Part shown: positions 85 to 11,846 of the stretch, piece after piece
Layout: each line of letters opens with the position of its first letter
Position numbering within the stretch: position 1 is the stretch's first letter
Translations under genes and position numbers: made by a program
Notes under the pieces: generated by a model
Told to the model about the DNA's origin: nothing
The model's database searches: none
Seen by the model: the letters and a program-made list of their open reading frames with translations, nothing else
From: Calditrichota bacterium
Lineage (GTDB): Bacteria > Zhuqueibacterota > Zhuqueibacteria > Zhuqueibacterales > Geothermadaptataceae
Length of the DNA stretch: 64,000 nt
Assembly (NCBI GenBank): GCA_008501765.1
Contig: QQUE01000002.1
Span: 432,336 to 496,335, forward strand
Direction of reading: 5' to 3'

Positions 85-714
85 ATGACAGGACTTCTCG
101 CCACACTTATCTATCTGCCCGCGCTGTTTCTTTCCGTAGAAACGGAAATAAGCTGGAGCGCCAACTCCGAGTCGGATCTCGCCGGCTATAAAATTTACTA
201 CGGCAAAGCCTCTCGAAATTACGATCAGGTTATCGATGTTGGCAAACAGCCCGGCTATTCAATCACGCTCACAGAAACGAACGTAACCTATTATTTCGCA
301 GTGACAGCCTATGATAGCTCGGGCAATGAAAGCGCTTTTTCCGAAGAGGTCGAAGCCATCATCGAGGGCCAGGTTGACCCCGATCCGGATCCGGATCCAG
401 ACCCACAACCGGATCCCACAGGTATAGACGAAAAAGTTTACAATTTCCCCAATCCATTTATTGCCGGACAGCAGGAAACCCATATCCGCTATTCACTTCA
501 AGAAGCCAGTCCCGTTACAATTGAGATATTCAACGTCAATAATGAGTTGGTACGAACACTGGAAAATGAAACGGAAAAAAGCGCGGGCACGCACACCGAA
601 ACAATCTGGAATGGCCAAACCGAAAGCGGTGAAAACGTGCCGCACGGAATTTATTACGGCAGAATAATGACTGCCAACAAAATTCGAATAATAAAAATTG
701 CCGTATTGCGATAA
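85..714 (+). CDS. Exported FnIII + FlgD-like C-terminal module protein
   Basis: Small predicted surface or secreted protein of 209 aa. After a hydrophobic leader (about residues 4-17) comes a fibronectin type III module (about 20-95; SDLAGYKIYYG and YFAVTAYDSSGNES are typical strands). A Pro-Asp repeat linker (about 98-111) leads to a FlgD-like Ig/C-terminal sorting module (about 118-209; YNFPNPFIAG near its start, GENVPHGIYYGRI near its end). In FCB bacteria this last module usually marks proteins exported and attached at the cell surface. An in-frame stop lies just upstream, so 85 is the earliest ATG. The leader lacks the usual basic residues, although a short ORF at 65-88 in another frame would supply them (see findings). 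The PorV-like gene follows after 22 nt, so the two probably form one unit. The exact role is unknown. Confidence 0.8.
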   Translation: MTGLLATLIYLPALFLSVETEISWSANSESDLAGYKIYYGKASRNYDQVIDVGKQPGYSITLTETNVTYYFAVTAYDSSGNESAFSEEVEAIIEGQVDPDPDPDPDPQPDPTGIDEKVYNFPNPFIAGQQETHIRYSLQEASPVTIEIFNVNNELVRTLENETEKSAGTHTETIWNGQTESGENVPHGIYYGRIMTANKIRIIKIAVLR

Positions 715-736
715 GCGAAGTCAGGGAAGACTCACT

Positions 737-1906
737 ATGAAATTTGCAGCATCCTCAATTACAAAAATTCTTATTCTACTCATCTGCTCAATACAAATTA
801 GCATTGCCCAGGATGGGCAGGCCACAGCCGGTGCTTTTTTAAGGATGGGCGCTGGCGCACATGCAAAAAGCATGGGCGGTGCTTTTACAGCCATAGCGAA
901 TACACCCGCGGCATCGTACTGGAATCCGGGTGGTTTGGCGCACATTGAGAGCATCAGTGTGCTGGCTTCCCACAATGAAATGGCGCTTGACCGGACTTAT
1001 ACTTTTATCAGCGGTGTCGTGCCGAGTTCACGCAACAGTTCGCTCGGAATCAGCTGGATTGGTTTAAATGTCAGCAATATCGAAGCGCGCACGGATGATA
1101 CATCCGAGCCTGACTATTACTTTAACAGCGCTAATAGCGCCTTCCTGCTATCCTATGCTTACAAATTTACTTCCTGGTTTTCTGTAGGCCTAAATTACAA
1201 ATGGCTGCAGGAGCGGGTGTACACATCAAGCCTTTCCGGCCATGGTTTTGATTTCGGGGTATTTTCCAAATTAACCGACACTTTTACAGCCGGATTGATG
1301 CTGCAGGATATTCAATCGACCGTGAAAGCGGAGGACGGATACAAACAGCCATTTCCCTTAATTTATCGTCTCGGGCTCGCTGCGCAAATTTCCAACGGAT
1401 TTAACACAGCTTTTGATATCAGCTTCAACGAAAACAAATACAGCAGTTTTGCTCTTGGGATTGAATACAAGCCAATGGCCATGCTGCCAATCCGCGCTGG
1501 ATTCAACCAACAAGGATTTGTCTTTGGTTCCGGCTTGCACATGCCGCTACAAACGATGAATTTAAGGCTGGACTATAGTTACGGCCAGGATCCGCTCAGC
1601 GGCAGCGATACGCACACAATCAGTGTTGGTGTTGGTTACAAACCCGCGGCACTGAACTTTTCCCGCGACAGAAAATCTAGTCCGGTGAAGCAAAACCGCC
1701 AGCCGTTGCAATATGTGGTGGTGCAAACCAAAAATCTCAATGTGCGTGAGGGACCAAGCACGAAATATCGAGTTCTCGGGGCTATCCATCAAGGCCAGCG
1801 ATTTCGCAAAACCGGTTCCATCGGCAACTGGTGTAAAATCAAAATTGGTAAAAAGAAATACGGCTGGGTGCACAAAAAATTTATTAAAGAATATATCCGG
1901 CGATAA
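737..1906 (+). CDS. PorV/UPF0164-type outer-membrane protein with SH3b tail
   Basis: Predicted outer-membrane beta-barrel of 389 aa. A signal peptide (about residues 1-24, ending SIAQ) is followed by the family signature AGAHAKSMGGAFTAIANT and YWNPGGLA, as in the PorV/PorQ/UPF0164 group. Alternating beta strands run to about residue 305. The last ~65 residues form a bacterial SH3 module (NLNVREGPSTKYRVLGAIHQ, then YGWVHKKFI), which often binds peptidoglycan. PorV proteins in type IX secretion hold cargo carrying C-terminal sorting domains, and the gene just upstream encodes such a module, so a cargo-handling role is plausible but inferred. The ATG at 737 is chosen over an upstream in-frame ATG at 698 because a GGAAGA lies 6-12 nt before it and the signal peptide begins there. 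Confidence 0.85.
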   Translation: MKFAASSITKILILLICSIQISIAQDGQATAGAFLRMGAGAHAKSMGGAFTAIANTPAASYWNPGGLAHIESISVLASHNEMALDRTYTFISGVVPSSRNSSLGISWIGLNVSNIEARTDDTSEPDYYFNSANSAFLLSYAYKFTSWFSVGLNYKWLQERVYTSSLSGHGFDFGVFSKLTDTFTAGLMLQDIQSTVKAEDGYKQPFPLIYRLGLAAQISNGFNTAFDISFNENKYSSFALGIEYKPMAMLPIRAGFNQQGFVFGSGLHMPLQTMNLRLDYSYGQDPLSGSDTHTISVGVGYKPAALNFSRDRKSSPVKQNRQPLQYVVVQTKNLNVREGPSTKYRVLGAIHQGQRFRKTGSIGNWCKIKIGKKKYGWVHKKFIKEYIRR

Positions 1907-1919
1907 CTCTCCTCCTCAG

Positions 1920-1966
1920 CCCGGTATGTTGACACAAAAGTGTTGCCATACCGGGTTTTTATTTTC
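1920..1966 (+). terminator. Intrinsic terminator
   Basis: A 9-bp GC-containing stem (1920-1928 with 1947-1955) is extended by an inner stem around an AAAA loop and followed by a T-rich run from 1956. It sits 14 nt after the PorV-like gene and closes the 85-1906 unit. Confidence 0.85.
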
Positions 1967-2027
1967 TACCTACCCTTGTCATTTCAAAAATAATTCTTAT
2001 ATTTTCTATTCGATTTATAGAATTCAG

Positions 2028-2091
2028 GAGTTCATTGCCTTTATGCAATGCGGGCGTAGAAACTAAGCAATCCATAAAGGGATTGCACTCC
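2028..2091 (+). repeat. Dispersed structured repeat B, left copy
   Basis: About 64 bp with outer arms GGAGTTCA and TGCACTCC, enclosing two small palindromes: CATTGCCTTTATGCAATG at 2033-2050 and GCAATCCATAAAGGGATTGC at 2067-2086. A near-identical element in the opposite orientation lies at 50090-50142. The left copy has about 10 extra bases between its two hairpins. The fold is REP/BIME-like. It lies between the terminator at 1920 and the HAD gene, and no ORF of its own is credible. Confidence 0.75.
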
Positions 2092-2125
2092 GATTATAAA
2101 CGGCCATTTTAAAACAGGAAAATAA

Positions 2126-2896
2126 ATGATACCCAACAATCCAGAAATTATAAACGAAATCAAAAAAAACATAAAAGCCATCACTTTCGATTTGTGGGGC
2201 ACATTAATCAACGACGTGCCCGTTCGGGATCGCGCTATCAAATTCAAACAAATGCGCAAAGACTTTTTTGTTGAAACACTGGCTGAATTTGGCCACGAAA
2301 TCGACCAGCCCACGGTGGACGCCGCCTACCAACATGCCAGCGAGGTATTCGACATAAACTGGAAGCAACAACGCGCTTTCGATGCCACTTTGGGAATTGA
2401 CGCGATGCTGGATTTTGTGAAAGTTGATGTGCCCGAGGAAACGAAAGAAAAACTGGTGCTGTTTTTTGAAGAAGTGATAAATGAGACATTGATTCGCATT
2501 GTGGAGGGCGGCAAAGAAGTTGTCCTCGAATTACACAAAAAGTATAAAATCGGTCTGATCAGCGACACGTCGTGGACGCCGGGGCGTGTTTTGGAGCAGC
2601 ACCTGCATCGACACGGTATTGGCCAGTGTTTCGATTCGTTGATTTTCTCCGACCAGCACGGCCAAACCAAACCAGCCCCCGCCTTGTTCGAAAAAGCCAT
2701 GTCTGAGCTCGGTGTTACACCCGAAGAAACCCTGCACGTCGGCGACCTGAAATTCACCGACATCCGCGGCGCCAACCAGGTCGGCTGCTACTCGGCGTGG
2801 GTTCACCGGCCGGATTATCTTGAAAATGGTACATCAGAAGATATGCCCCATTTGACTATTGACTCGGTGGCGGATTTGAGGGAGGTTTTGCTGTGA
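2126..2896 (+). CDS. HAD-superfamily hydrolase (DxW variant)
   Basis: Cytosolic 256-aa HAD-IA type hydrolase. Motif I is FDLWGTL at about residues 21-27, with the nucleophile Asp but Trp where phosphatases usually have the second Asp. Motif II Ser/Thr is in GLISDTSW (about 141-148). Motif III Lys is in QTKPAPALFEKAM, and motif IV is HVGDLKFTDIRGA (GDxxxxD). A helical cap lies between motifs I and II. With Asp+2 missing it may be a haloacid dehalogenase-like or phosphonatase-like enzyme, or a phosphatase of altered mechanism. The substrate is not readable from sequence. The ATG at 2126 has AGGAAA 7-12 nt upstream. It stands alone behind repeat B and converges on the next gene. Confidence 0.85.
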   Translation: MIPNNPEIINEIKKNIKAITFDLWGTLINDVPVRDRAIKFKQMRKDFFVETLAEFGHEIDQPTVDAAYQHASEVFDINWKQQRAFDATLGIDAMLDFVKVDVPEETKEKLVLFFEEVINETLIRIVEGGKEVVLELHKKYKIGLISDTSWTPGRVLEQHLHRHGIGQCFDSLIFSDQHGQTKPAPALFEKAMSELGVTPEETLHVGDLKFTDIRGANQVGCYSAWVHRPDYLENGTSEDMPHLTIDSVADLREVLL

Positions 2897-2940
2897 TTTT
2901 TAAATGTTTGGAATTAACTCTAATCTGTTGTAAAACTCCC

Positions 2941-3423
2941 TTAAAACCGCCAACCTACTTGAAACTGAAAATAAGGCAATAGTTGAACTGAAGTAAGACC
3001 CAATTTGAGAAAAAAACTATTGTCCATTGGTGCCAAACAATAGCCTGCTGCCCATGCAGGGAAAATCGCAGAACCAACTCTTTTATGATAAATTGAAAAA
3101 CCGAATTCCAAGTAAGTCCATGAAGCATCACCGATTGATTTGTATTTATGAAAACTACTTGACCAGGTTGGAAAAGATAAATCCAAATGGGAATCACCTT
3201 GTTTCATAAAAAAAGAACTCACGCCAACGGAGATTGAAAAATTCTCAATAATAGAGGGGAGAAATGCACGTTCATAATAAAATCCAGGATTGATCCCCTT
3301 GCCCCAAATTTCCGTTGCCAGCGCCTGTTCAGATTGTTCAAGGAACAGACTCTGAGCCACGAGAGGAATATTGAATAAAAAGATAGAGACTATTGAAATA
3401 AAATATGAAGACGATTTACTCAT
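2941..3423 (-). CDS. Small outer-membrane beta-barrel protein, unknown
   Basis: A 160-aa protein with a clean signal peptide (basic start, hydrophobic core about 6-22, VAQS cleavage region). Short alternating polar/aromatic strands follow, and it ends in an aromatic strand (FQFQVGWRF). A C-terminal Phe is the usual BAM insertion signal, so a small outer-membrane barrel is the best reading. No family is recognised. The ATG at 3423 has GGAAG about 5 nt upstream. The decayed CopG antitoxin lies upstream of it. Confidence 0.6.
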   Translation of the reverse strand: MSKSSSYFISIVSIFLFNIPLVAQSLFLEQSEQALATEIWGKGINPGFYYERAFLPSIIENFSISVGVSSFFMKQGDSHLDLSFPTWSSSFHKYKSIGDASWTYLEFGFSIYHKRVGSAIFPAWAAGYCLAPMDNSFFLKLGLTSVQLLPYFQFQVGWRF

Positions 3424-3529
3424 TTAACTTCCCACATTAATATTTTATACCCCAATACGAAATTTTATAAAATTCAGCTTCAAAAGAAATCAAGATTGAA
3501 GAACCACAACACAAAATCATTTTCAATTC

Positions 3530-3823
3530 TCACCTACGTGGCTGCACGCTCACAAAATTGCCAACGACAAATTTATGCGGGATACTATAGATAAATGTTT
3601 GATATAACAAAACTTTCTGAACTGCCTGGCGCTGCAGTTCGTTGAGGTCCCGTTCGGATATGCGAATGTTCACTCGTTGATTTTTTCGCACCGTAGCACG
3701 TGCAAAATACTTAATATCCGTTTAGTGGTACTTGAGAGTTGGCACGGATTTTCACTCATAATTCTCAAATGAGTCCAGAATCTCGCGTTTATCTTTGGTT
3801 AAATTGTTTTCATGGATTATCAA
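3530..3823 (-). pseudogene. Decayed CopG-family (ribbon-helix-helix) antitoxin
   Basis: Reading the minus strand from about 3823 in one frame gives a recognisable CopG_antitoxin-type protein: REILDSFENYE, then stop TGA (3754-3752), KSVPTLKYH, then stop TAA (3724-3722), then YFARATVRKNQRVNIRISER, DLNELQRQA, YQTFIYSIPHKFVVGNFV, and the natural end at 3530. Intact relatives carry GEWKSVP at the first stop, so a Trp codon appears to have become TGA. The RVNIRIS strand and DL..LQ..A helix are the DNA-binding ribbon-helix-helix. No partner toxin is visible on either side. Only a possible TTG (3823) serves as start. Confidence 0.78.
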
Positions 3824-3852
3824 ATTCAATTCTCTATTTTACATCTCCCAGG

Positions 3853-5232
3853 TTACCGCATTCTAAATATATAAATAATCACAGACAAAACAAGCCCCGG
3901 AAATATTGCTTCAATCCTCAGGGGCAATTGCCCGGTCAGCCAGCTCAGGCTGAGCCACAGCGCAGAAATCCCCCCGGCTGCCACGATATTTATGAATGCT
4001 GCTGTTGGACTCATTTTCCATTTTGCGCTAAAACTTGTCAGCAACGGCAGCAGCAATGCCGGTGTCGCGACACTGCCGAGTTGGTACCAGATTGTTATGA
4101 TTGATGAACTGAGAAGAGCGATGACAATCGAGATGGCAAATGTGATCAGCAGGCCCAACCGGGTGTAATGATTGAGTCGATCGTCTTTTCCACCGCGCAA
4201 GCGCCAGAGAAAATCCCGGCCAATTGTGACGGCCGAAACAAATCCGAAAGAGTCGAGCGTCGACATGATTGTTGCAAGCAGGGCGACGAAAAACAAGCCT
4301 TGCAATATAGTGGGCAGAAGAGTCACGGCCAATTGGGGAAAACTGTGGGTTGGGTCGCTCAATTGCGGCAGCAAAACCCGGGCATAGAGCCCGGCCGTTG
4401 TAGTGAGAAAATCAAAAAATACCCAGAACAAGATTGAAATAAAAATTCCCCACCGCGCTGTTTTTTCCGATTCTGCAGCAAAACAGCGCTGGTAAAAATT
4501 GGCGTCCACCAGCGTTGCCATGGCGATAACGTACCAAACGAGTATGTATTGCAGTGAATTGCCACCGTGCCAGGTCAGATGCCGGGCCGGCAAATTTTCC
4601 TGTAAAAATGTGATACCGCCATAATTCCACCAGGCTGTAGCGACCAATACAATAAATCCGGAAAACATGAGAATAAATTGCAGGATATCGGTGCGAATCA
4701 CGGCCTGCAATCCACCGCGAAATATATAGAGAAATGAAAATCCGGCCGCAAAAAGAATCCCGGCCCAAACCGGGATCGGCAAAAACAAGTGCAGCAAAAT
4801 CCCCAGCATGAGTAAATAGGGCGCGGGCAAAGCCAATATAAAAATAAAAAAAGCACCAGCCGTGCGTGCCCGGCTCCCATAGGCTTTTTCCAATTGGTCG
4901 GGAATAGTGTAGTGCCCGCTGCGCCGGGCGACTTTGGCGATAAAAACCGCAAAAATGATGGCACACAAATAATAGGGCACACCGAAGACCAGCCAGTTGG
5001 AAATGCCGTACAAATAAGTAAATTCACCAACCCCAAGAATGCCGCCGTACCAAGTCGAGACCATGGAGGCGACAAAAGCAGGCAGCGTTACACGGCGGCC
5101 GGCCACAAGAAAATTCTCTGCCGATTCCTGTTTGTTTTTCTTTCCGAAACCCAGCCAAAATGTGAGCACAAAATAGGCAAGAATCAATAACTGATCGATG
5201 GCCGCCAAATTGACCACAATTACAATCCCCAC
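3853..5232 (-). CDS. SSS-family sodium:solute symporter, probable thiamine-related permease
   Basis: Inner-membrane transporter of 459 aa with about 12-13 hydrophobic helices spread over the whole length. Family signs are the first helix with GFGKKNKQESAENFLVAGR, SMVSTWYGGILGVGEF in TM2-3, and SMLGILLHLF-like and RGGLQAVIRTDILQF segments. Members couple Na+ entry to uptake of sugars, amino acids, vitamins or ureides. Its start (GTG at 5232) overlaps the end of the thiamine pyrophosphokinase gene by 13 nt. It is the last gene of a unit headed by a TPP riboswitch and a TonB receptor, so inner-membrane uptake of thiamine or a thiamine precursor is the natural inference. Substrate specificity cannot be read from the sequence. 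Confidence 0.88.
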   Translation of the reverse strand: MGIVIVVNLAAIDQLLILAYFVLTFWLGFGKKNKQESAENFLVAGRRVTLPAFVASMVSTWYGGILGVGEFTYLYGISNWLVFGVPYYLCAIIFAVFIAKVARRSGHYTIPDQLEKAYGSRARTAGAFFIFILALPAPYLLMLGILLHLFLPIPVWAGILFAAGFSFLYIFRGGLQAVIRTDILQFILMFSGFIVLVATAWWNYGGITFLQENLPARHLTWHGGNSLQYILVWYVIAMATLVDANFYQRCFAAESEKTARWGIFISILFWVFFDFLTTTAGLYARVLLPQLSDPTHSFPQLAVTLLPTILQGLFFVALLATIMSTLDSFGFVSAVTIGRDFLWRLRGGKDDRLNHYTRLGLLITFAISIVIALLSSSIITIWYQLGSVATPALLLPLLTSFSAKWKMSPTAAFINIVAAGGISALWLSLSWLTGQLPLRIEAIFPGLVLSVIIYIFRMR

Positions 5233-5858
5233 GCCTGGTTGTTATGCGAAATAAAGACGAAGAGACATCCCGACGTCAGCGAAATGCCCACTGGATTCGC
5301 GACAATTTCATTGCTTTGGCCATCGCGGACAGCCCATTCCAGGGCTTCATTTTGCAAGGGATATTTCAGTCCGCTGGTGACAATTCCCTCAACACGGCGC
5401 ATGGCGTGCAGGCTGATTTGTTGTCCGATTTCCCCTTCAAACTCCAACCTGCTGGTGATAAAAAAACCGGTCCCCCAGTCATCAACAAAGTTCAGCTCTA
5501 TTTTAGGATTATATTTTTCCATAACATTAAGATTGCAGAGCTGATGATCAAAACGGGCACCGGAAATTCCAAGAACTGTTGCGGAATCGACTCCTTTTTC
5601 CAGGGCAATCTGCAGCGTTTTTTCGAAATCGGTTGCATTTTGGTCTGGCAGATGAATAAAGCTCGTATCCGCGAAATGACCGATGGTTTTGCTGTTAATC
5701 GAATCAAAATCGCCGACAATAAAATCCGGCATAATCCCCCGTTTGATCGCCTGATTGGCACCCCCATCGGCACATATTATTAAGTCACATGTCTGAAGAA
5801 GCGGCTCAACCAGGGCTGAGTTTGGCAGGGTTCCATTGATAATTATCAGAGCTTTCAT
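5220..5858 (-). CDS. thiN: Thiamine pyrophosphokinase
   Basis: Cytosolic kinase converting thiamine to thiamine diphosphate with ATP (AMP released). The 212-aa protein shows the TPK signatures in order: LIICADGGANQA, MPDFIVGDFDSI, DQNATDFEKTLQIAL and SGARFDHQLCNL in the catalytic domain (about 1-130), then the B1-binding beta domain (GLKYPLQ and a SNEIV strand, to about 212). The ATG at 5858 is preferred because AAAGGA lies 8-13 nt upstream; two upstream in-frame ATGs (5876, 5867) lack such a site. It is the second coding gene of the riboswitch-led unit and overlaps the permease gene. Phosphorylation would trap imported thiamine inside the cell. Confidence 0.93.
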   Translation of the reverse strand: MKALIIINGTLPNSALVEPLLQTCDLIICADGGANQAIKRGIMPDFIVGDFDSINSKTIGHFADTSFIHLPDQNATDFEKTLQIALEKGVDSATVLGISGARFDHQLCNLNVMEKYNPKIELNFVDDWGTGFFITSRLEFEGEIGQQISLHAMRRVEGIVTSGLKYPLQNEALEWAVRDGQSNEIVANPVGISLTSGCLFVFISHNNQAWGL

Positions 5859-5953
5859 TTGATACATCCTTTGCATGATGCTGATATTTTACCTTCACGG
5901 CACGTTTAAATTTGCAAAACTAGAGGCCGCAGGGGCAACTGTTGAATATATTA

Positions 5954-8374
5954 TCACTTGGTGTACTGGAGACTCACAAATACATTGCGTGTTGCCGCAG
6001 GCCAAAACTGATCACCTTCCCCGTAAGAAAGGTATTTCTTGTTAAGTAAATTATTAACGCGGGCTTGCAAAGCCACACCTCTGAAACCCAATTTGTCCAG
6101 CGTATGTCGCATATTTAAATTTATAACCGCAAAAGGTTCTACAGAGAATTCATCGGATTGGGTGTTGTCCGTATATTGCCGTCCAACATATTTGGCAATC
6201 ATTGAAATATAAGCTGCATCCCATGCCCATGTCAAGCGCAGGTTTGCCAATGTATTGGGGAATCCCGCGATCTGGTTGCCACTAAAATCCGTTACAACAT
6301 CGCCCCAATCGTAAGTTTTATAGGATTCGAGTTTATTGCGGCTTATCAAAAAATTACCCGCAATAGTGAGCTGCGGCAGAACATGCATTTCCGAGCTCAA
6401 TTCAAGGCCTTTGTGTGTCGTGTGTTCGGCATTTCCTGTGATAGGTTGGCCGAAGCGGTCGAGCTGGCCACTTTTGATAATTTCATCTTTAAAATCCATA
6501 TAATAAATATTGGCAAAGGCATTTAAATGCTGGCTGCGATAGCCAATTCCCAGTTCAAAATCTGTGAGTTTTTCAGGTTTGACGAGCGGTGAATCAAAAT
6601 CAAATGATCCGTCATCTTTCAAATTAAACTGCGGTTGCACAACGCCCCAACTTTCGGGATAACTCGCCTCGGCTGCATCGTAATAATTTTTTAGCCGTGG
6701 TTCGCGAGTCGTGTGCGATATATTTGCATAAATATTGGTTCTCCCAGTTAAATTATAATTCAGACCAAAACGTGGATTAATAAAATTATGTGGCACAGTG
6801 AAATCATTATTTAGAAATTTCTCATCAAACAACCGGTATTCCTTGCGAGCGAACTGCACATCGCCCACGGCAATTACATTTTCACTCAACCGATACGTTT
6901 CATGAAGATAAAAAGAAACGATATTTTTCCCCCCTTTGTACTCATAATATCGCCTGGCGCCATCGCCGGCAACATCGGAGGGCAATCCGGTACCATTTTG
7001 CAAACGTCCCCAATGCAGGGAGCGGTGCAGGCGAAATTCGGCGCCGGCAACCAATTCTCCTGATTTGTGTTTCCAGGTTAAATTCGGCAGCCAGCCGACT
7101 TGATTGTTGTCAACATAGGCCCGAATGAGTGCATCAGCTGGGATGGCATCGATATTCGAATACCCATAATCTGCGGTAAGCCGATAGTATTCGGGCGTGC
7201 CCCAACTGCCGTCGTAATCGAAAAATCCGTAGCCTTTTACATAAAATGCACTGTTATTAAGCGAAACATTTGGCGACACACGCCATTCGTGGATGGCTTC
7301 AAAGTGGGGCTGGTTAAAATTTTCCAGCTCATCCGGCCGGAAAGAATTGCTGCGGCGCAAGTCTTTATCGCCATTGTATTCTTTGGGAATGCCGTAATAG
7401 CCAAAGCCGTCTTCCACCGGTCCGCCGAATGCGTGCAACCGCAAACTGCTTTGTTTTGTGTAATACGCCGCGCCGGCAAAATAATTCCTTAAATCCACCC
7501 AGGTGCCATCGCGGTAGCCGTCGCTGGTAATTTTTGAAACGCGGGCGAAAAGCACGAAATTGTTATTTAGCAGCCCGGTATTGTAGGATAGCGAGTATTT
7601 TCTCGTATTAAAAGCACCGGTTCCGGCAAATGCTTTCACCTCCTTTTCTGTCGAAAAATAATTGGTGAGAATGTTAATTGAACCACCGATGGCCGCGGGG
7701 CCATAAAAAGCAGAACCGGCGCCACGCTGCACTTGGATACTTTGTACATTGGAAGTGAAATCGGGTAAATTGACCCAATACACATTGTGATCTTCCGGAT
7801 CATTCTGCGGAATTCCATTGATGAGCACAGCAACACGGCGTTGATCAAAACCGCGAATACTCATGTAATTATAACCCAGATTATTGCCACCATCCGAGTA
7901 AAAAGTAGTCGAAGGCATTTCCGAAATGACTTCCGGAATTTCTTCGATGCTATAGCGGGCTTCAAGCTCGTTTTTCACCATTGTGCTGTATGTAACTGGC
8001 GAAACCCGGTCTTTGGCATGCGTCGCCACGACTGTTACCACCGGACCCGATAGAACTTCACTGCTCAAAACAATATTTAGTTCTTTTTTTATTGACGGAA
8101 TGGATACACGAACTTTTTGTGTGCTGTAACCAATGTAGGAAATTTGTAATTCATAGCTGCCTGCAGGTAATTCGGGTAGGATAAAAATGCCATTTTCATC
8201 CGTTGTCGTGCCGAGTGAGGTGTGCAACACAGTGATGTTTGCCCCGACGAGTGGTTCTTTTGTTTCTCTGCTTACTACTATCCCGCGAATGGTTTCACCA
8301 CTTTGTGCGAACAATGCATTAGTAATGAAATAGAAGAGCATCGAGAACAGGCTAGTTCGTAAAAGAAAATTCAT
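5954..8374 (-). CDS. TonB-dependent receptor, probable thiamine uptake
   Basis: Outer-membrane receptor of 806 aa. A signal peptide (about 1-24) precedes a carboxypeptidase-regulatory-like domain (about 27-100; GIVVSRETKEPLVGANI, GSYELQISYIGYSTQKV). The plug domain (about 120-225) carries YNYMSIRGFDQRRVAVLING and GSAFYGPAAIGGSINIL, and a 22-strand-type barrel runs to the C-terminal LQYTK. Such receptors import scarce ligands using TonB energy. A TPP riboswitch and attenuator lie directly upstream, and thiamine pyrophosphokinase and a permease follow 95 nt downstream. The ligand is therefore most likely thiamine or a phosphate or precursor of it, as for the thiamine-regulated receptors known in Bacteroidetes. 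The ATG at 8374 follows a weak AAAGGA. Confidence 0.92.
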   Translation of the reverse strand: MNFLLRTSLFSMLFYFITNALFAQSGETIRGIVVSRETKEPLVGANITVLHTSLGTTTDENGIFILPELPAGSYELQISYIGYSTQKVRVSIPSIKKELNIVLSSEVLSGPVVTVVATHAKDRVSPVTYSTMVKNELEARYSIEEIPEVISEMPSTTFYSDGGNNLGYNYMSIRGFDQRRVAVLINGIPQNDPEDHNVYWVNLPDFTSNVQSIQVQRGAGSAFYGPAAIGGSINILTNYFSTEKEVKAFAGTGAFNTRKYSLSYNTGLLNNNFVLFARVSKITSDGYRDGTWVDLRNYFAGAAYYTKQSSLRLHAFGGPVEDGFGYYGIPKEYNGDKDLRRSNSFRPDELENFNQPHFEAIHEWRVSPNVSLNNSAFYVKGYGFFDYDGSWGTPEYYRLTADYGYSNIDAIPADALIRAYVDNNQVGWLPNLTWKHKSGELVAGAEFRLHRSLHWGRLQNGTGLPSDVAGDGARRYYEYKGGKNIVSFYLHETYRLSENVIAVGDVQFARKEYRLFDEKFLNNDFTVPHNFINPRFGLNYNLTGRTNIYANISHTTREPRLKNYYDAAEASYPESWGVVQPQFNLKDDGSFDFDSPLVKPEKLTDFELGIGYRSQHLNAFANIYYMDFKDEIIKSGQLDRFGQPITGNAEHTTHKGLELSSEMHVLPQLTIAGNFLISRNKLESYKTYDWGDVVTDFSGNQIAGFPNTLANLRLTWAWDAAYISMIAKYVGRQYTDNTQSDEFSVEPFAVINLNMRHTLDKLGFRGVALQARVNNLLNKKYLSYGEGDQFWPAATRNVFVSLQYTK

Positions 8375-8389
8375 TTCTTCATCCTTTCT

Positions 8390-8434
8390 TTTAAAAGTAA
8401 AAAGCCGATTCCCGACGTTTGGAAAACGGCTTTC
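8390..8434 (-). terminator. Riboswitch expression platform terminator
   Basis: On the minus strand GAAAGCCG (8434-8427) pairs with CGGCTTTT (8407-8400) and is followed by a T-rich run. It sits between the TPP aptamer and the TonB receptor start, as expected for transcription attenuation. The 58 nt between aptamer and hairpin could hold an antiterminator. Confidence 0.8.
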
Positions 8435-8492
8435 TAATAATATTTATTGGAAAGTCTGAAGATCTGCGCTTTCAGTTCAAGAAAGTTAGCGA

Positions 8493-8572
8493 CCGTTTCC
8501 TACGCCGGTATAATCCGGTTCAGGTTCGAAGGGTGTGTTCTCAGTCCTTTAATTTGGGGGACACCCCTACGG
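8493..8572 (-). promoter_or_regulatory. TPP (THI-element) riboswitch
   Basis: The minus strand carries the conserved thiamine-diphosphate aptamer in order: P1 CCGT, GGGGTGTCC, ACTGAGAACACACCCTTC, GAACCTGA, a TACCGGCG loop region, GTAGGAAACGG closing P1. The CUGAGA and GAACCUGA blocks contact the pyrimidine side and the pyrophosphate sensor helix in known structures. High TPP should fold the aptamer and favour the downstream terminator, switching off the receptor, kinase and permease. Confidence 0.95.
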
Positions 8573-8581
8573 ATTGCGGTA

Positions 8582-8610
8582 AAAATAGCGGATCAGGGAA
8601 GAAAAAGCAA
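8582..8610 (-). promoter_or_regulatory. Candidate sigma-70 promoter of the thiamine operon
   Basis: Minus-strand TTGCTT (8610-8605) and TATTTT (8587-8582) are separated by 17 nt. Transcription would start close to the first base of the TPP aptamer, which is the expected geometry. The -10 box is a moderate match only. Confidence 0.45.
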
Positions 8611-10254: not shown

Positions 10255-11454
10255 ATGGGTCGAAGTTGGTTACGCTTTTTGTTACTTGGCATACCTGTTG
10301 TTTTTTTGCAGGCTTTTCAACCGGATACTATCTTCAGTCAGCAAAAGACTGGTGAACTGGATATGTCGATGATGGACAAAGATTTAAACATCATGGAATC
10401 CATTCTCGATAAATTATTATCCGAAGACGATTATCGCCGTATCCATTTAACGCACAGCTCGACTCGCGGTATTTTTATCCCGAGTTATGGCGTAATTTTC
10501 ACCGTGCCAATTCGCAGACCCATATTTCAGGTGTTGACCGAAAGATTTCATCAATTGCAGATGGAAGAGGAAGAACACGTAGCAATCATCAGCACGGAAA
10601 ATTCGCGGTCGCCGCAGAAAAAAGCAACCAGAGAGGAAACCGAATTAAAAATAAATTATTTTCTTGGGAAATATGCGGACGCCATTCGACAGCTACGCGG
10701 ACAGGATAAAATTACCGTTATTTATTCTGATCAGTCGATGAACAACGCAGGTTCAAACTGGCAATCGGCATCCAGCTTTGACTCGGGTTTTACAAGTTCA
10801 ATTGCTTTTAACACTATTCAACAATTCAATGCTGGTAAAATAAATCGTCGGACATTTGACAATTTAGTGTCTGTGAATTCCGAGGTTGTTACGCATGACA
10901 GACAGCCTGAAATAGGCATTTTCATCAATGCAATGCAAACGATTTTGCACAGCCGTTCTGCCGAGACTTTCGATTTACGCGGTGGTATTTCCCAATTTCA
11001 TCTTGCAGATTTCGGTGTCATTTTTTCGTTTCAAGCCAATTTTCTAAGCTCAAATTCGCTTGAATATTTTTTTAGTGTCGATCCCAATTCGGCTGAATTT
11101 TCCGAGACCAGAATCATTCGAGGGAAAAAAGGCAAAACCGGAACAGGGATAAACGTCTGGACACAATTTTCGCATATCGACACGGTAAGCACAGCGCAAT
11201 TAATCAAGGCATTTTCAGATTTTGAAAATAAATTACAGCACTTAATTACCCAGTATGCTCCGACGCTCGATGTGGAAAAACCAGAATCCTGGCTGGTTCT
11301 GGCTGTGAAGATCGATCAACTGAACCCCCAAATTCCGACCCGGGCTGTGTATAAAATTCAAAACAAAAATATTCAAGCACTAATGGACCGGAAAATTAGC
11401 CGCGAAAAACTCATCAATGAAATCGAATCTTATAAATACTATCCAATTCAATAA
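10255..11454 (+). CDS. Exported protein of the ECF sigma operon, unknown
   Basis: A 399-aa protein with a signal peptide (hydrophobic about 7-20, then DTIFSQQ). No family is recognised. Two related stretches can be seen: about residues 45-85 (ESILDKLLSED ... STRGIFIPSYGVIFTVP) and about 215-262 (INAMQTILHSR ... GGISQFHLADFGVIFSF). Both have a short helix followed by a strand pair ending GVIF, suggesting an internal duplication. It begins 12 nt after the anti-sigma gene and is surely co-transcribed, so it is likely a periplasmic target or sensor component of this system. Its 3' end overlaps the convergent DUF4430 gene by 7 bp. Confidence 0.75.
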   Translation: MGRSWLRFLLLGIPVVFLQAFQPDTIFSQQKTGELDMSMMDKDLNIMESILDKLLSEDDYRRIHLTHSSTRGIFIPSYGVIFTVPIRRPIFQVLTERFHQLQMEEEEHVAIISTENSRSPQKKATREETELKINYFLGKYADAIRQLRGQDKITVIYSDQSMNNAGSNWQSASSFDSGFTSSIAFNTIQQFNAGKINRRTFDNLVSVNSEVVTHDRQPEIGIFINAMQTILHSRSAETFDLRGGISQFHLADFGVIFSFQANFLSSNSLEYFFSVDPNSAEFSETRIIRGKKGKTGTGINVWTQFSHIDTVSTAQLIKAFSDFENKLQHLITQYAPTLDVEKPESWLVLAVKIDQLNPQIPTRAVYKIQNKNIQALMDRKISREKLINEIESYKYYPIQ

Positions 11455-11831
11455 TTTTTCAGCCGCCAAACGACCTGCATTGAGTCTTCGACACTAATTT
11501 GTGTTAATCCAACCTGTGATGCTTTTCCATTAATTTCCAAAAACCAGAATTCTTTTTCTGCCGCATCCGCAGTCACACCGACAATTGAATTTACAAAGGA
11601 ATTCGCCGGATCGTTGTATCCAATTTGGACAACAGCCTGCATAACTTTCTGCAGCGGTATTCCGTGAATCACGCTGGTTTTAACGACAACTTCGTGGGTT
11701 GAATCTGCAACGATATGAATTTCAAGTGGGATATCACCACGAAATGCTTCGAGGGAAACGTCATTATTTTTTTCATTGTTACAAGAAAAAATCAGTAATA
11801 AAATCGCAACCGTCATCATTATTTTTTGCAT
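11448..11831 (-). CDS. DUF4430-like lipoprotein
   Basis: A 127-aa predicted lipoprotein. The leader ends LLLIFSCN, so Cys about 17 would be lipidated. The rest resembles the DUF4430/transcobalamin-C-terminal fold: IPLQKVMQAV early, FWFLEINGKASQVGL (the W.. NGK.. turn), and DSMQVVWRLKNY at the end. In relatives this small beta domain binds corrinoids or serves as an extracellular adhesion domain. The ligand here is unknown. The ATG at 11831 is preferred over 11834 because AGGAGG then sits 4 nt upstream instead of 1. It follows the tRNA operon terminator on the same strand. Confidence 0.7.
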   Translation of the reverse strand: MQKIMMTVAILLLIFSCNNEKNNDVSLEAFRGDIPLEIHIVADSTHEVVVKTSVIHGIPLQKVMQAVVQIGYNDPANSFVNSIVGVTADAAEKEFWFLEINGKASQVGLTQISVEDSMQVVWRLKNY

Positions 11832-11846
11832 CATTCCTCCTATGTG

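Follow-up and report, generated by a model that had tools for sequence, protein, structure and literature searches.

A window of 64,000 nucleotides (the whole stretch of DNA that was analysed) carries on its minus strand a set of genes that we read, with a probability of about 0.87, as an operon for thiamine salvage in a KSB1-group bacterium that is auxotrophic for the vitamin, with one TPP riboswitch as its control. The genes encode a TonB-dependent receptor, a thiamine pyrophosphokinase (TPK) and a permease of the sodium:solute symporter family (SSS). An earlier note on this DNA had named the same three minus-strand genes, and their products pass the Pfam and NCBIfam cut-offs; the enzyme that its title called a thiamine kinase is, by TIGR01378, a thiamine pyrophosphokinase. 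The features of the operon and its leader are as follows.

8610-8605, minus strand: probable -35 hexamer TTGCTT, read from the sequence, a weak match to consensus.
8587-8582, minus strand: probable -10 hexamer TATTTT, 17 nt from the -35 hexamer and 3-4 nt upstream of the aptamer.
8578-8480, minus strand: TPP riboswitch aptamer (THI element), RF00059.
8508-8492, minus strand: 3' part of the aptamer, CCGGCGUAGGAAACGGU, antiterminator-capable by its complementarity to 8430-8412.
8436-8398, minus strand: intrinsic terminator hairpin with a 15-bp stem (-17.4 kcal/mol) and a U-rich tail to about 8393.
8387-8382, minus strand: Shine-Dalgarno-like AAAGGA of the receptor gene, read from the sequence.
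8374-5954, minus strand: TonB-dependent receptor of 806 aa, predicted outer-membrane thiamine receptor (PF07715, PF00593, PF13715).
5858-5220, minus strand: TPK (TIGR01378, PF04263, PF04265); the reading frame is open from 5876.
5217-3853, minus strand: sodium:solute symporter, predicted inner-membrane thiamine permease (PF00474); the reading frame is open from 5232.

Elsewhere in the window, the gene of a small DUF4430 protein (11448-11834, minus strand) adjoins two tRNA genes.

The leader contains a complete TPP aptamer. The earlier note had placed it at 8572-8493 and proposed scoring the region with the TPP model; Infernal against Rfam returned a full-length match to RF00059 (model positions 1-105) at 8578-8480 on the minus strand, with 69.5 bits against a gathering threshold of 54.3 (E 1.4e-11) and the conserved core present. 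It is the only TPP riboswitch that the Rfam search found in the genome. Across 30 members of the class, 6 of 17 aptamer pairs covary and the aptamer invariants are conserved, and we infer that the RNA binds TPP. Related aptamers vary at their periphery: those of the f8 leaders L056, L058 and L059 and of the f9 leaders have long inserts in a peripheral stem, and the f9 aptamers, at 40-45 bits, fall below the Rfam threshold yet precede receptor-TPK-SSS genes.

The promoter-like pair that the earlier note reported is present, and a similar TTG(A/C)-17/19-TATnTT pair recurs, by eye, in several relatives a few nucleotides ahead of the aptamer; both hexamers of the window are, however, weak against the consensus, which is that of E. 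coli. Since a generic promoter scan gave many comparable chance matches, no single site counts as evidence, and the recurrence in class leaders is better support for a promoter than such a scan.

Downstream of the aptamer, the terminator that had been proposed at 8434-8390 was found as a hairpin at 8436-8398 with its U-rich tail. Its 5' arm and loop (8430-8412) can instead pair with the 3' part of the aptamer (8508-8492), forming 16 bp at -23.7 kcal/mol; shuffled arms gave a mean of -12.3 kcal/mol (sd 3.0), and none of 300 matched the real pairing. Terminator and antiterminator are mutually exclusive and overlap the aptamer, as is usual for terminating (TPP-off) riboswitches. Most class leaders have terminator hairpins, and the complementarity between terminator and aptamer reaches p<=0.05 in 19 of 26; the value for leader L058 is discounted, as the wrong motif position was measured. 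Leaders of class family f9 gave no such complementarity, and outside the class a terminator-like hairpin was found in 24 of 44 leaders and the complementarity in 9. Because the pattern is not general there and is missing from f9, other lineages probably switch differently.

These features point to TPP-dependent termination at the window leader. Transcription would begin close to the aptamer's 5' edge or exactly there. With ample TPP, the nascent aptamer would bind the ligand and retain its own 3' strand, so that the terminator at 8436-8398 folds and transcription ends ahead of the genes; when TPP is scarce, 8508-8492 of the aptamer would pair with 8430-8412 and RNA polymerase would read through. 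The three genes, presumably co-transcribed, would then provide a receptor that takes thiamine across the outer membrane, an SSS permease that brings it through the inner membrane together with Na+, and a TPK that converts it to TPP, which would both trap the vitamin and close the feedback loop.

The receptor has a Plug domain (PF07715) and a beta-barrel (PF00593) above cut-off, together with CarbopepD_reg_2 (PF13715), and its homologues sit behind TPP riboswitches in the class and across FCB lineages. The second gene product scores 154.2 bits against the TIGR01378 equivalog cut-off of 76.4, matches both PF04263 and PF04265, has 2omk as its nearest solved sequence and is the sole TPK of the genome. 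Its start is probably at 5858, a position conserved among relatives. This leaves an intergenic gap of 95 nt after the receptor gene, which could hold another promoter. The junction with the permease gene is tighter. The earlier note described overlapping gene ends, and a reading frame starting at GTG 5232 does overlap TPK; the alignment of relatives, however, favours GTG 5217, which is probably the start and lies 2 bases after the TPK stop.

The permease is an SSF-domain protein (PF00474, 100.7 bits). Assignments as PanF (66.8 bits against a cut-off of 328) and PutP (51 against 515.5) were rejected. Its AlphaFold2 model (pLDDT 95.6, pTM 0.93) has a LeuT-type fold and is closest to the human choline transporter CHT1 (Z 46.2, rmsd 2.9 over 447 residues), ahead of the sialic-acid symporter SiaT (Z 38.4) and SGLT1 (Z 37); the outward-open CHT1 entries may be favoured by conformational state. 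By sequence profile, a bacterial CHT (sfCHT) likewise ranks first. Choline in CHT1 is contacted by W62, Y67, Y91, W141, W254 and W406 (PMC11589582). In the profile alignment W61, Y87 and W382 of the permease match CHT1 W62, Y91 and W406, and they are conserved in 52, 54 and 54 of 54 sequences, respectively, while the position of W254 is D/E243, acidic in all 54. With three of six choline contacts kept, the site alone is no proof of substrate, and its aromatic and acidic character would fit a cation such as thiamine. Residues of the sodium sites Na2 (S324/T325) and Na3 (D182/D327/S328) also align with those of CHT1; the Na2 side chains are kept in nearly all of the 54 sequences, and the Na3 aspartates vary in some lineages. 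Thiamine is the predicted substrate of receptor and permease alike.

The metabolism of the genome (5.9 Mb, 98.9% complete) agrees with a salvage function. The earlier note had suggested a look for thiamine biosynthesis genes, and family searches, on which all gene absences reported for this genome rest, found neither ThiC nor ThiE. No true ThiD was found either: its matches, at 24-46 bits against a cut-off of 205, and those of ThiG, at 20-33 bits, were treated as paralogues rather than synthesis genes, and matches to ThiL (about 80 bits against 184) as related enzymes. Transketolase-family TPP enzymes are encoded, and no PF04973 match, and hence no PnuC/PnuT homologue, was detected in the genome. 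Lacking ThiC, ThiE and a true ThiD, the organism should be a thiamine auxotroph that depends on imported thiamine.

Comparison within the class shows that the genes travel together. The unit that the earlier note described as compact and as joining capture, entry and trapping is conserved in relatives: behind class riboswitches, families f1 and f9 and parts of f2 keep the receptor-TPK-SSS order. Receptor and SSS follow one another with no TPK between them in f8, f11 and f12, and in f7 the riboswitch precedes the receptor alone, with SSS elsewhere. Where class members have synthesis genes, the riboswitch heads ThiC or ThiE/ThiL/ThiD operons. The window permease belongs to a distinct SSS subfamily, as judged over 63 genomes, in which members are 45-82% identical and paralogues, across a wide gap, about 31% or less. 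The subfamily occurs in 34 of these 63 genomes and in none of the 34 together with ThiC or ThiE (Fisher 6e-6 and 5e-12, uncorrected for kinship). In the tree the window groups with another MAG of its genus and with JdFR-76, and the records of its relatives are labelled candidate division KSB1, which upholds the earlier placement in an FCB lineage outside Bacteroidota.

When the SSS alignment was run against GTDB genome contigs, at least 557 relatives were found, and the best 80 of their loci were examined. These 80 are mostly from FCB lineages, with the labels KSB1, Zixiibacteriota, Ignavibacteria, Bacteroidetes, Neomarinimicrobiota, Kryptonia, Latescibacterota, Krumholzibacteria, Eisenbacteria, Armatimonadetes and others. 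Receptor-(TPK)-SSS operons are found outside the class in many FCB phyla. Among the best 80 loci, a TPP riboswitch was present in 48 of the 62 with room upstream, including every such locus headed by a TonB receptor. Two Zixiibacteriota contigs (L084:4172-4429 and L093:4158-4547) have two complete tandem TPP aptamers upstream of receptor-SSS. Five Neomarinimicrobiota loci (L113, L116, L124, L129 and L130) have TPK-SSS with no TonB receptor, and TPP riboswitches were not detected in them.

Other readings of the operon concern either its control or its cargo. The aptamer might be a relic or control the receptor only, with TPK and SSS expressed independently. The 95-nt gap, a weak promoter-like site at 5979-5950 and the f7 arrangement all lend themselves to this; the class, however, keeps the aptamer invariants, the terminator and the antiterminator, and the receptor-TPK-SSS order persists in f1 and f9, in parts of f2 and in other phyla, which makes independent expression quite improbable. 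It is hardly credible that SSS carries the thiamine precursor HMP, for which ThiV of SAR11, a protein of the same superfamily under the same kind of riboswitch, is the described precedent (PMC11452348): the genome lacks both ThiE and ThiD, without which HMP would be of no use, and the SSS subfamily and ThiE never occur together in the class.

The import of thiamine monophosphate, TPP or another B1-related compound, with TPK using thiamine from its dephosphorylation, is also improbable for the window, and it is the reading that other class members bring to the fore. The substrate of ThiL is thiamine monophosphate. SSS and a true ThiL occur without TPK, ThiE or ThiC in five class genomes (G027, G028, G038, G043 and G044), and in G044, where neither TPK nor ThiE was found, locus L064 (G044:C158, about 688-5923 in riboswitch orientation) has a TPP riboswitch followed by ThiL as the first gene of the operon, then the TonB receptor and SSS. 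A search for ThiK in these ThiL-only genomes, with a narrow model, gave nothing above cut-off. These genomes suggest either an unrecognised thiamine kinase or thiamine monophosphate import, and several of them are incomplete. Against phosphorylated cargo in the window, the partner enzyme TPK uses free thiamine and the nearest structural relative of the permease carries choline, a monocation. A broader proposal, that the SSS subfamily is a general inner-membrane B1 importer of FCB bacteria outside Bacteroidota and, with the receptor, imports thiamine monophosphate in lineages that have ThiL and lack TPK and ThiE, is doubtful as a whole; we know of no established uptake route of this kind for thiamine monophosphate. 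For the window we retain the reading of a riboswitch-controlled operon for the salvage of thiamine itself.

The arrangement is less novel than the earlier note held. Kublanov et al. (2017) described the Cabys_3975-3977 locus of Caldithrix abyssi, an organism with incomplete thiamine synthesis; there a TPP riboswitch precedes a TonB receptor by 163 nt, and the locus also encodes a sodium:solute symporter and a thiamine pyrophosphokinase (PMC5317091). By that published description, the two loci share the set of parts, incomplete synthesis and a host outside Bacteroidetes; Caldithrix abyssi is of a different lineage, and the passage on its locus gives neither the terminator pairing nor the breadth of the SSS subfamily. 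In Bacteroidetes, OMthi-pnuT-tnr3 likewise combines a TPP riboswitch, an outer-membrane receptor, an inner-membrane permease and TPK, often in one operon (PMC5613172), but its permease is PnuT whereas that of the window is SSS, and B. thetaiotaomicron also makes thiamine, which the window genome should not. The B. thetaiotaomicron transporter genes beside TPP riboswitches changed little with thiamine (PMC5613172), so strong regulation of the window operon cannot be assumed. ThiV of SAR11 and the algal SSSP/SSSQ are also SSS permeases linked with a TPP riboswitch and with thiamine metabolism, and the descriptions by which we set ThiV and SSSP beside the window permease mention no TonB receptor or TPK partner for them (PMC11452348). 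The nearest solved relatives of the permease, by fold or profile, are the choline transporters CHT1 and sfCHT (PMC11589582, PMC13220886); identity is about 19%, and three cage positions differ, one of them invariantly acidic in the subfamily. With the parts published for Caldithrix abyssi and the design known from Bacteroidetes with PnuT, the window operon is a further member of an already reported arrangement, sound and largely ordinary. The additions made here are how the terminator pairs with the aptamer, how widely the SSS subfamily is spread, and that this subfamily is excluded from genomes that have synthesis genes.

The operon makes the dependence of an uncultured lineage on vitamin B1 cleanly testable. 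In many FCB phyla, TPP-riboswitch receptors are commonly partnered by SSS and not by PnuT, and from this association a substrate can be predicted for hundreds of SSS proteins left unnamed by the family models used. It also predicts that organisms with such operons live on B1 released by their neighbours.
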